The translations under genes were made by a program, and so were the position numbers. The notes beneath the pieces were generated by a model. It was not told the origin of the DNA and searched no databases. It worked only from the letters and a program-made list of their open reading frames with translations. From the NCBI RefSeq assembly GCF_000177635.2, contig NC_014836.1, positions 2,464,001 to 2,528,000 on the forward strand: DNA of 64,000 nucleotides, given 5' to 3'. Positions 56,691 through 60,719 of this stretch are shown piece after piece (the stretch's first letter is position 1; every line of letters starts with the position of its first letter). This stretch comes from Desulfurispirillum indicum S5. GTDB lineage: Bacteria > Chrysiogenota > Chrysiogenetes > Chrysiogenales > Chrysiogenaceae.

Positions 56691-56726
56691 ACGGTTCCTC
56701 ACGCGTTTGCTGCGCTCACTCAAGTC

Positions 56727-56778
56727 GCAAAGCCCGCCAAGGAAGACAAGGGGCGCACAGCGCAAAGTGGGTGTCCTT
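56727..56778 (+). repeat. 51-bp direct repeat, copy B
   Basis: Near-identical to 55985-56035 (GCAAAGCCCGCCAAGGAAGA ... GTGGGTGTCCTT), same orientation, 742 bp away. Confidence 0.75.
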
Positions 56779-56999
56779 TTCGTCTATTGCTGCTCGACCG
56801 TTTATAAGAGTGCAATTAATCCTGATCTAGCCTCATTATAATAGCGCATTACGTTTTCACTTGCTTGCCCTTTCCTGCCTTTGTCTGCGGTAAAAGAATG
56901 CTGCTATGCTTTCCCTCCGCAGCTTTGCATGAGACTGTGCCTTTCTCTGTGCCTTGGTGGACTTTGTGTGAGACATATTATCCCAACTGGCGGATGCGC

Positions 57000-57335
57000 G
57001 TTCGCTTATCCGCCCTACATCTATTCGCGTTTATTCGCGGCCATTCGCGGTAAACCCTGCCTTTCCTTGGCGAGCCTGGCGGCTTGGCGAGAGATATGTC
57101 TTTCCCTCTTTTTCCGTGCCCTCCGTGTTTTCCGTGGTTCAATCTCTCTTTGCCTTTTCCCCGCGCCTCTGCGTGCTCCGCGAGAAACCTGCCTTCACAG
57201 CTCCCTGCATCTATTCGCGTTTATTCGCGTCCATTCGCGGTAAAGCTCCCCCTGCCTTTCCTTGGCGAGCCTGGCGGCTTAGCGCGAGGCATATTTTCCC
57301 CTCTTTATTTCGTGGCTTCCGTGTTTTCTCCCCGT
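57000..57335 (-). repeat. Degenerate intergenic repeat block 2
   Basis: Two rounds of: ATTCGCG-type periodic tract (57020-57050 and 57210-57241), then CTTTCCTTGGCGAGCCTGGCGGCTT (57060 and 57256), with a CCGTGCCCTCCGTGTTTTCCG module between. The periodic tracts are reverse complements of those at 55905 and 56513. The end touches the nrdG stop. Confidence 0.65.
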
Positions 57336-58015
57336 GTTATCACGCGGGAAAACATCTGCGCGAAGCGCTGGTGCGCGGTGGTGAAATCGGTGGCCGACAG
57401 GGGAGAGCGAAAGCGTTTATCCAGCATGGGGGCGCGGTCGCGCAGAAACTGCAGGGCCAGGGGAGCGCTGCCGCAGTGGGCGGCCAGGGCGCGCAGTTCT
57501 TCGGGTTCGGGCAGTTTCCAGAGGGTGTGGCGCAGTTCAAAGGGGATGCTGGCGCTGCACAGATGGGCCAGGCTGGTCAGCAGGGGCTGTATGCTGGTGC
57601 AGGTGCGGGTGATGTGGGCCATGTCGGCATCATTAAAGGCTTTGACGTCTACGGCCACAAAGTCCACCAGTTCCTGTTCCAGCACCTGTTTCAGGCGATG
57701 GGGCAGGGTGCCGTTGGTGTCGAGTTTGATCCGGATTTTCCGGCTGCGCAGCTGTTGCAGCAGGGTTTCAAGTTCCCGCTGAAAAAGGGGCTCGCCGCCG
57801 GTGATGGCGACGGCCCCGATCTGGTGCCGGTCAATGTATTCCAGCAGCTGGTCCTGGCGGCTCCTTCCGGGCTGTCCCAGGACGAGTGCGGGATTGTGGC
57901 AGTAGCGGCAGCGCAGGTTGCAGCCGTGGGTGAAGACGGTGGTGGCGATTTCACCGGGAAAGTCCAGCAGACTGACGGGGGTGAAATCGGCCACCAGGGT
58001 GGGCGTGTGGCTCAT
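57305..58015 (-). CDS. nrdG: Anaerobic ribonucleotide reductase-activating protein (radical SAM)
   Basis: Uses a 4Fe-4S cluster and SAM to make the glycyl radical on NrdD. 236 residues. Cluster motif CNLRCRYC (CxxxCxxC) near residue 33, preceded by LLDFPGEIATTVFTHG, with AITGGEPLFQ and KLDTNGT downstream. The ATG overlaps the stop of the small glycyl-radical gene. The C-terminus runs into repeat DNA. Confidence 0.94.
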   Translation of the reverse strand: MSHTPTLVADFTPVSLLDFPGEIATTVFTHGCNLRCRYCHNPALVLGQPGRSRQDQLLEYIDRHQIGAVAITGGEPLFQRELETLLQQLRSRKIRIKLDTNGTLPHRLKQVLEQELVDFVAVDVKAFNDADMAHITRTCTSIQPLLTSLAHLCSASIPFELRHTLWKLPEPEELRALAAHCGSAPLALQFLRDRAPMLDKRFRSPLSATDFTTAHQRFAQMFSRVITRGENTEATK

Positions 58016-58185
58016 GGGTTGACCGCAAAGGTCTCCCGCTTGCCGAATTCCTCTTTTTTGCCTTCGTTCCAGTGGTTGGTGGGGCTGTGGTAGCCCACGA
58101 CACGGCTGTAGATGTCGCAGGGGGTTCCTTTGACGCTGGCAAGCTGTTCTTCCAGTTGCTGAATCTGTGCTTCGCGCTGGCTCAT
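58012..58185 (-). CDS. Separate glycyl-radical domain of the anaerobic ribonucleotide reductase
   Basis: 57 residues, running from ATG 58185 (overlapping the nrdD stop) to TGA 58012 (overlapping the nrdG start). An N-terminal helix (~1-18) is followed by CDIYSRVVGYHSPTNHWNEG and KKEEFGKRE. RVVGY is the glycyl-radical motif of NrdD C-termini, with the radical expected on G31; the W-N-x-G-K and EEF pattern is also conserved. The large NrdD chain next door lacks this motif, so the two must act together. Confidence 0.82.
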   Translation of the reverse strand: MSQREAQIQQLEEQLASVKGTPCDIYSRVVGYHSPTNHWNEGKKEEFGKRETFAVNP

Positions 58186-60248
58186 GAGTGTGCTCCTGTC
58201 AGATTGATTTCGTGCAGGCCGTCCTGGCCTTTGAGTTCGGTAATCCGGGTCTGAATTTCCTGCCGCTGTTCCTGGGCGCAGTGGGGGCAGTGGGTGTGCT
58301 CGCCCTTGAGGTAGCCGTGAACAGGGCAGATGGAAAATGTCGGTGTGATGGTGATGTAGGGCAGGTGGTAGCGCCGGGTGATGGTGTCCAGCAGTTTGCC
58401 CACGGTGGTGCCGTCCTCCACGGCTTCGCCCAGGAAGATGTGGAAGACGGTCCCCCCGGTGTAGAGGGGCTGCAGCTGATCCTGATGGTCCAGGGCGGCA
58501 AAGAGGTCGCGGGTTTTCTCCACCGGTATCTGGGTGGAGTTGGTGTAGTAGGGGCGCTCTTCAGTACCGGAGGTGATGATGCCGGGAAGGGTCTGGCGGT
58601 CCTTGCGGGCCAGGCGGAACGAGGTGCCTTCGGCGGGGGTGGCCTCCAGGTTGTAGAGCACGTCTTCCTCCAGCTGGAACTGTCCCAGGCGCTCCCGCAT
58701 GAATTCCATGACGCGACGGGAAAATTCCAGCCCTTCGGGATGGGTGATATCCACGCCGATAAAGTTCAGCAGCGCTTCGTTCATGCCGATGATGCCGATG
58801 GTGTTGAAGTGGTTTCGCCAGTACTCGCCAAAGCGCTGATGAATATCCTGCAGGTAAAAGCGGGAATAGGGGTAGAGGCCGTTTTCCGTCAGGCGCTCCA
58901 GGGCCTTGCGTTTGATTTTGAGGCTGTCGCGGGCCAGCTCCATCAGCTCGGCCAGCCGCTCAAAGAAGGCCGTTTCGCTGTCCACGCTGTGGGCGATGCG
59001 GGGCAGGTTGATGGTTACCACGCCAATGGAGCCGGTCAGGGGATTGGCGCCAAAGAGTCCGCCACCGCGCTTGTGCAGTTCCCGATTGTCCAGACGCAGG
59101 CGACAGCACATGCTGCGCGCGTCGTCGGGGCTCATGTCGCTGTTGACGAAGTTGGCAAAGTAGGGGATGCCGTACTTGGCGGTAGTCTCCATCAGCCTGC
59201 CCACCATGGGGTGCTGCCAGTCGAAGTCGCGGCTGACGTTGTAGGTGGGAATGGGGAAGGTGAAGACGCGCCCTTTGGCGTCGCCTTCCATCATCACTTC
59301 CATGAAGGCCTGGTTGAGCATGAACATCTCTTCCTGAAATTCCCCGTAGGTGCGTTCCTGGGGCTTTCCGCCTATGATGACCGGCTCGTCGCGGTGGGTG
59401 GAGGGGACGTACAGGTCCATGGTCAGGTTGGTGAAGGGCGTCTGAAATCCCACGCGGGTGGGGATATTCAGGTTGAAGACGAACTCCTGCATGGCCTGCT
59501 TCACTTCGGGGTAGGTCAGCTGGTCATAGGCGATAAAGGGTGCCAGGCAGGTATCGAAATTGGCAAAGGCCTGGGCCCCCGCGGCTTCCCCCTGCAGGGT
59601 GTAGAAGAAGTTGACCACCTGACCCAGGGCCGAGCGCAGGTGTTTGGCCGGCTTGCTCTCCACCTTGTCGGCCACGCCGCGAAAGCCGCGCACCAGCAGA
59701 TCCTTCAGATCCCAGCCGCAGCAGTACACCGCCAGCAGCCCCAGATCGTGAATGTGAAAGTCGCCACGGGAGTGGGCTTCCTGCACCTGGCGCGGATAGA
59801 TCTTATTGAGCCAGTAGCGGGCGGTGATGGTGGAAGAGATGTAGTTGTTGAGCCCCTGCAGCGCATAGGTGGTGTTGCTGTTTTCGTTGACCCGCCAGTC
59901 GCTGCCGCCCAGGTAGGATTCCACGATGCTCTCCAGACCTTCGAAGCTTTCGGTCATGGCCCGCATGTCGGCGCGCTGGTGGCGGTAGATGATATAGGCT
60001 TTGGCGGTTTTGGCGTGGCCACCCTCGATGAGAACCTTTTCCACGCAGTCCTGCACCTGCTCTACGGTGCAGGAACCGTACTGGCCGTACTGGTCCACCA
60101 GGGCGCGCAGCACCTGCAGGGAGAGGGCCGAGGCAATGTTACGGTCGCTGCCGCCCACCGAACGGGCGGCCTTGAAGATGGCAGTGGCGATGCGCTCCTG
60201 GTCGAAGGGGACAAAACGACCATCGCGCTTCATGACAGTAGTGATCAT
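58182..60248 (-). CDS. nrdD: Anaerobic (class III) ribonucleoside-triphosphate reductase, large chain without glycyl-radical tail
   Basis: Makes dNTPs without oxygen. 688 residues. N-terminal ATP-cone (~1-90: MITTVMKRDGRFVPFDQERIA... AYIIYRHQRAD), ten-stranded barrel (FHIHDLGLLAVYCCGWDLKDLL, QTPFTNLTMDL, FANFVNSDMSPDDARSMCCRLRL) and a C-terminal zinc site with C641, C654, C657 (CPVHGY...CPHC). The chain ends 31 residues later without RVVGY. GGAG precedes ATG 60248. A cobalamin riboswitch lies upstream. Confidence 0.95.
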   Translation of the reverse strand: MITTVMKRDGRFVPFDQERIATAIFKAARSVGGSDRNIASALSLQVLRALVDQYGQYGSCTVEQVQDCVEKVLIEGGHAKTAKAYIIYRHQRADMRAMTESFEGLESIVESYLGGSDWRVNENSNTTYALQGLNNYISSTITARYWLNKIYPRQVQEAHSRGDFHIHDLGLLAVYCCGWDLKDLLVRGFRGVADKVESKPAKHLRSALGQVVNFFYTLQGEAAGAQAFANFDTCLAPFIAYDQLTYPEVKQAMQEFVFNLNIPTRVGFQTPFTNLTMDLYVPSTHRDEPVIIGGKPQERTYGEFQEEMFMLNQAFMEVMMEGDAKGRVFTFPIPTYNVSRDFDWQHPMVGRLMETTAKYGIPYFANFVNSDMSPDDARSMCCRLRLDNRELHKRGGGLFGANPLTGSIGVVTINLPRIAHSVDSETAFFERLAELMELARDSLKIKRKALERLTENGLYPYSRFYLQDIHQRFGEYWRNHFNTIGIIGMNEALLNFIGVDITHPEGLEFSRRVMEFMRERLGQFQLEEDVLYNLEATPAEGTSFRLARKDRQTLPGIITSGTEERPYYTNSTQIPVEKTRDLFAALDHQDQLQPLYTGGTVFHIFLGEAVEDGTTVGKLLDTITRRYHLPYITITPTFSICPVHGYLKGEHTHCPHCAQEQRQEIQTRITELKGQDGLHEINLTGAHS

Positions 60249-60445
60249 AGTTCAGGCTCCGTGGCTTCCGCCACTGTCCGTCCGCGAAGACGGCACATCA
60301 TCCCGGCAAATATCCGGGCAGGCAGTGGCAGGGGTACGCATGTGATGAAAGAAATGGGTACGTGGGCCGCAGAGCGCTGGCTACAAAAGACGGGAACGTG
60401 AAGACAGAACTTCCATAGGAACATCCCTCCGCTGTGTGTTCTCGG

Positions 60446-60594
60446 GGCAGGTATCCTGGCTCGCCATCATCCTCAGCTCCGCCTTCCCGTGTTGTCACAG
60501 TGGCGCATGGAGCCTTGTCCGGCTTACAGTTGCGGGGGCAGCGACGGATTTTCACCGCACTTCCCTGAATCCCGGATCGATATAGTGCCCTGCC
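60446..60594 (-). promoter_or_regulatory. Cobalamin (AdoCbl) riboswitch controlling nrdD-nrdG
   Basis: On the minus strand: GGCAGG (60594-60589) opens a stem closed by CCTGCC (60451-60446). Between them are CAGGGAAGTGCGGTGAAAAT, the core CTGCCCCCGCAACTGTAAGC, GCCACTGTG, CACGGGAAGGC and the B12 box GCGAGCCAGGATACCTGCC. These are the standard conserved blocks in order. About 200 nt separate it from the nrdD start and contain further hairpins (CCCGG/CCGGG; CCGTC/GACGG) that may form the expression platform. Confidence 0.93.
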
Positions 60595-60719
60595 TCTGCG
60601 ACCATGTCAACGGAAGATTTCCCACCCCCGGCTTCCCTTGATTGCCACGGGTTTCTGGAGTAGTATCTGCCCATCGGACTCGTATTTTTTTATCCATCTC
60701 GAATATCAGGAGGCATTCC

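Follow-up and report, generated by a model that had tools for sequence, protein, structure and literature searches.

How does a class III ribonucleotide reductase work when its large chain ends before the glycine that would carry the radical? This question is raised by three consecutive minus-strand genes in Desulfurispirillum indicum S5, which we analyzed within a window of 64,000 nucleotides (contig NC_014836.1, positions 2,464,001 to 2,528,000). The first, nrdD (58182–60248), is an open reading frame for a class III reductase chain of 688 residues, supported by profile matches. It is followed by a gene for a 57-residue protein (58012–58185), identified by a profile match and by purifying selection, which bears an SRVVGYH motif with Gly31 behind a short N-terminal helix. 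The third gene, nrdG (57305–58015), encodes a 236-residue radical SAM activase of the NrdG2 type (TIGR02495, 150.7 bits; cut-off 131). The sequence shared by neighboring genes is ATGA in both cases, combining the nrdD stop with the start of the small gene at 58182–58185 and the small-gene stop with the start of nrdG at 58012–58015. The coordinates, lengths and overlaps given for the three frames in a preliminary description of this DNA were exact on re-examination. An AGGAG ribosome-binding site stands 7 nt ahead of the ATG of the small gene, and the break between nrdD and that gene is free of any intron, intein or endonuclease, consisting of the 4-nt overlap with no intervening DNA. On the same strand, 5′ of nrdD, lies a cobalamin riboswitch (60429–60621; RF00174, 90.6 bits, E = 3 × 10−22). 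Separately, the intergenic segment at 56700–57250, downstream of nrdG, is a member of a dispersed repeat family with 72 matches of 27–551 bases in the D. indicum genome, itself included.

We examined what each chain contains. NrdD aligned with positions 1–540 of the 562 in PF13597 (E = 1 × 10−181) and scored 1022 bits against PRK08270. An ATP-cone at residues 4–93 precedes the NRDD barrel at residues 122–670; the finger loop reads SMCCR, with Cys381/382, and is invariant across relatives. The zinc motif, Cys641-x2-His644...Cys654-x2-Cys657, is a sequence motif for a predicted metal site. Scanning all 688 residues for R-x-x-G-[YFW] returned no occurrence. The profile and the motif scan thus agree with the preliminary account of a chain that has ATP-cone, barrel and zinc site and lacks RVVGY, and no glycyl-radical motif is hidden elsewhere in the large chain.

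The end missing from NrdD, PF13597 positions 532–562, is precisely what the 57-residue protein matches (31.7 bits; cut-off 26.2). PF13597 was the sole family matched, with no assignment to PF01228. Gly31, within RVVGY, occupies the profile position aligned with Gly621 of Thermotoga maritima NrdD, the radical glycine of that enzyme (PMC4493059); the radical-domain profile aligns to residues 616–645 of the Thermotoga protein. The profile match and the ATGA junctions together bear out the initial observation that the motif is carried by a gene at 58185–58012 which itself overlaps nrdG. At the level of sequence, the radical glycine and the active site are accordingly on two chains, NrdD being without the motif and the next gene having it. 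Pairwise dN/dS values of the small gene against relatives were ~0.1–0.17, taken only where dS was unsaturated, which shows purifying selection on this gene. Together with the retention of the pair across phyla, this conservation is far beyond chance.

A sequencing error or a recent frameshift could have divided one gene, or programmed frameshifting could rejoin the two, as might be suspected from the 4-nt overlap and from the fused NrdD in L022, a genome that belongs to the same family. Comparative evidence contradicts this explanation. A second genome of the family (L002) has the identical layout, with a small protein that differs by one substitution, and in relatives anything from a few bases to several hundred, frequently including more than one stop, lies between nrdD and the small gene; the gaps that run to tens or hundreds of bases and the multiple stops count against this explanation. 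In Orenia metallireducens (L080, 3799–6699) the order is nrdD–nrdG–radical gene; with nrdG between the two genes, neither a frameshift nor readthrough can rejoin the chains. The small genes have dedicated ribosome-binding sites, and no slippery heptamer was seen at the D. indicum junction. The fused NrdD of L022 (genome G001), for its part, has just 61% identity to the D. indicum protein and sits on a separate branch of the tree; it is therefore a different NrdD, which suggests replacement or horizontal transfer of nrdD within the family. Given the L002 layout, the gapped relatives and the gene order in L080, we rejected an erroneous split; a frameshift rejoining the two genes, one of the two outcomes that the preliminary description had considered fatal to its reading (the other being a second motif in the large chain, excluded above), is excluded, and this whole line of explanation is extremely improbable.

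The content of the genome bears on the role of the small protein. The D. indicum S5 assembly is one closed contig of 2,928,377 bases, the size reported for the complete genome (2,928,377 bp; PMC3368425), and it encodes one NrdD only and one radical domain of the NrdD type only; no PFL-type radical domain (PF01228) was detected in it. With neither an NrdD bearing its own domain nor a PFL-type domain in the genome, the small protein would act as an obligatory subunit. YfiD (GrcA) of Escherichia coli and Y06I of phage T4, the spare parts of pyruvate formate-lyase (PFL), are likewise free-standing glycyl-radical domains, predicted to be activated by a radical SAM enzyme while in a complex that includes the large chain, and they are reported to be the only spare parts to have been validated (PMC8683613). 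However, both belong to PF01228 and rescue an enzyme that has a domain of its own, whereas D. indicum has no such NrdD. The comparison with YfiD made at the outset therefore holds for the chemistry and fails for the role, there being no intact NrdD to rescue. A reading of the small protein as a YfiD-like replacement for domains lost when oxygen cleaves intact NrdD can draw on this shared chemistry, and stand-alone domains do exist in genomes with intact NrdD (e.g. L136) and on many phage contigs. It is nonetheless very improbable for D. indicum, where the single NrdD is domainless, in contradiction to a rescue function, and the operon position beside a domainless NrdD is conserved.

How widespread is the split? 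The core tree of NrdD comprised 95 rows (79 split, 16 fused) and placed D. indicum NrdD in a Deferribacterota clade whose members are all split. Wherever enough sequence was available, Deferribacterota loci with this type of NrdD were split as well, except for the fused L022. Changes between the split and fused states number at least five on this tree, of which strongly supported branches force only one. Two loci of the same phylum with NrdD of the PRK07111-type subfamily (L026 and L027) also have their break ahead of the radical domain, suggesting that the split arose more than once. We surveyed further phyla with the radical-domain profile, using open-frame length as the criterion and so covering domains close to that profile. 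Of the matches that could be classified, split pairs accounted for 37 of 133 (28%) in the Desulfobacterota-type phylum, 16 of 23 (70%) in Omnitrophota and 2 of 36 (6%) in Bacillota. They were also present in Paracoccus and Cupriavidus metallidurans megaplasmids; the annotation of Paracoccus ferrooxidans lists the small gene between the reductase and the activase as a hypothetical protein. Short NrdD-like proteins, whose existence in other genomes had been anticipated, thus occur in large numbers. As to how often such a protein follows a domainless NrdD, which had been proposed as a check, we examined 88 split loci from several phyla (some genomes counted twice) and found a ribosome-binding site before the small gene in nearly all of them. 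The activase came next in 83 of 90 split loci, and six of the other seven left no room for it. The two-gene arrangement, its conservation, its single copy and the identity of the glycine can all be read directly from these sequences.

Split pairs fell into two patterns at the zinc site. In 37 split loci, D. indicum included, NrdD keeps the four ligands Cys, His, Cys and Cys, and the small protein has a cysteine directly ahead of the [DE]VYSR motif, with none at −3 to −6 in any of the 37. In another 51, any of twelve residues, including His, stands in place of the fourth NrdD ligand, and every small protein (51/51) has a cysteine 3–6 residues before the motif. The equivalent place is also occupied by a cysteine in L079, a relative in which both parts are fused into a single chain. 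In lineages without the fourth NrdD ligand, the break may lie inside the zinc site, with the small-chain cysteine appearing to complete it and the metal binding both chains as a staple. The association is strong as a pattern and not as a statistical test, since it represents only two to three independent changes on the tree, too few for an independent-pairs test. This reading is inapplicable to D. indicum, where all four ligands are in the large chain.

AlphaFold2 was applied twice to the read-through pair of a close relative (L004), the alignment including fused relatives in the second case only. The barrel was predicted well, and a fold search with the model gave only class III enzymes as top PDB matches. 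The radical domain reached a pLDDT of ~35–70, with the glycine loop below 50 under both alignments. Given these low values, docking of the small protein on NrdD in trans is what we infer from homology. The tethered model also contained confident helices at the C-terminus of NrdD and the N-terminus of the small protein. In the D. indicum proteins, the amphipathicity of both helices was no better than that of shuffled sequences, and the correlation between the lengths of the NrdD tail and of the small-protein N-terminus (Spearman 0.63) is confounded by kinship. A coiled-coil dock formed by the two extra helices was rejected on these two grounds.

Next, we considered regulation. A cobalamin riboswitch lay upstream of nrdD in 7/7 Deferribacterota loci tested and in 0/7 loci tested from other groups. 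D. indicum also encodes a B12-dependent class II reductase, NrdJ, as a separate, unsplit frame of 756 amino acids. The riboswitch and NrdJ together indicate that the split NrdD is probably a B12-independent back-up. A similar logic applies to nrdDG of Desulfovibrio and Desulfuromonas, described as being under cobalamin riboswitch control (PMC545781): as in D. indicum, a B12-independent reductase is repressed when B12 allows NrdJ to work. The passages of that study concerned with these genes report regulation, and we found no mention in them of a split enzyme. The same two features, a class II NrdJ and an operon under a cobalamin riboswitch, could also be taken to mean that the two genes are pseudogenes in decay, kept silent because deoxyribonucleotides come from NrdJ. 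Yet the motifs are intact, the small gene is under selection, the pair is conserved over several phyla and the riboswitches are retained, and we give decay hardly any credence.

Radical domains unlinked to an NrdD gene were also encountered. Two are proteins of ~112 residues in which a CxxC...CxxC zinc ribbon precedes the radical domain: one (L136, 3041–3394, minus strand; genome G340) occurs beside two fused NrdDs, and the other (L138, 2685–3068, plus strand; genome G362) in a genome that also has NrdD genes. Similar zinc-ribbon types were found in the viral loci L186, L203, L217 and L219. A search of 198 genomes for a family of this type gave a single full-length match, the query itself. Three further unlinked radical domains were noted at L137 (3045–3404, plus), L139 (2899–3084, minus) and L140 (2725–2910, plus); among their contexts are one phage-like neighborhood, one genome that has a split pair too, and one position at the end of a contig, beside an Ssb-like gene and phage-like genes.

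The best 80 IMG/VR loci with the radical domain (L144–L223) comprised 61 with a small frame and no NrdD in the flanks, 12 fused, four with NrdD nearby and three unclassified. Whole records were searched for 36 loci that had no NrdD in their flanks or were unclassified, and in 34 of these 36 only the radical domain was found, in records that may be fragments. The viral stand-alone domains are ~40–140 residues long (e.g. L219:2791–3111, L213:2962–3168 and L157:2935–3135), and neighboring genes include those for terminase, primase, tail and adaptor proteins. By analogy, the phage domains are possible candidates for an NrdD counterpart of T4 Y06I, that is, a spare part for the host NrdD. A broader proposal would treat the radical domain as an exchangeable cartridge in nature, which many bacteria make as a separate subunit, which some hold in place with a zinc ion that takes its fourth ligand from the small protein, and which many phages bring along by itself so that the host NrdD keeps working or starts again during infection; we offer it tentatively, as somewhat less probable than even.

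For D. indicum itself, the small protein is very probably the obligatory glycyl-radical subunit of a two-chain class III reductase plus activase, docking into NrdD in trans. In the proposed scheme, nrdD, the 57-residue gene and nrdG would form one operon, probably expressed when cobalamin is short and backing up NrdJ, and coupled translation would produce the small protein beside NrdD. The small protein would then dock at the site taken by the C-terminal radical domain of an ordinary NrdD, for which the D. indicum chains may use the extra helices that lie C-terminally in NrdD and N-terminally in the small protein. NrdG with S-adenosylmethionine would activate Gly31, and the radical would be passed from the small protein to the finger-loop cysteine of NrdD. 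What we infer in this scheme is the docking, the activation and the trans catalysis. A variant compatible with this two-chain enzyme would make the radical carrier a dissociable cartridge, exchanged during the life of the enzyme, instead of a permanent subunit. The short length of the protein, the recurrence of the split in several lineages, and the unlinked bacterial and phage copies speak for exchange, but zinc stapling in relatives would favor a stable complex, and we consider the variant rather unlikely.

The two-chain enzyme can be compared with known systems. T. maritima NrdD (PDB 4COI/4U3E; double-cysteine finger loop MCCR/SCCR) shares the barrel, finger loop, zinc motif, radical-domain sequence and NrdG partner. 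However, its zinc site and its radical glycine belong to a single chain, whereas the D. indicum chain ends after the zinc site and leaves the glycine to another protein; D. indicum NrdD also has an N-terminal ATP-cone, unlike the Thermotoga enzyme. Split class II NrdJa/NrdJb of Pseudomonas aeruginosa (PMC4009431, PMC9669993) is alike in that the C-terminal part of a reductase is a neighboring second gene, but it is a class II enzyme that uses adenosylcobalamin and no glycyl radical, with other domains in NrdJb, while the D. indicum chain is class III. Phage nrdD genes also occur in pieces (PMC3653736), owing to introns, inteins, homing endonucleases or an unknown cause, in contrast to the bare overlap of D. 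indicum, which falls exactly between the zinc site and the radical domain and is conserved over phyla. The class III and other glycyl radical enzymes that we found described in the open-access literature carry the radical on their own chain, except for the PFL spare parts. Within that literature (RNR reviews, RNRdb papers, class III structures and PFL spare parts), we found no account of a class III reductase whose glycyl radical resides on a subunit of its own.

These results portray the class III enzyme as more modular than it is in textbooks. Split enzymes are miscounted by databases in which NrdD is scored as a single chain, and the stand-alone radical domains borne by phages gain a testable role. 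If the natural 57-residue radical carrier is indeed separate, the radical domain alone could be labelled, mutated, titrated and swapped, and the swing of the domain between the activase and the active site would become a simple binding experiment.
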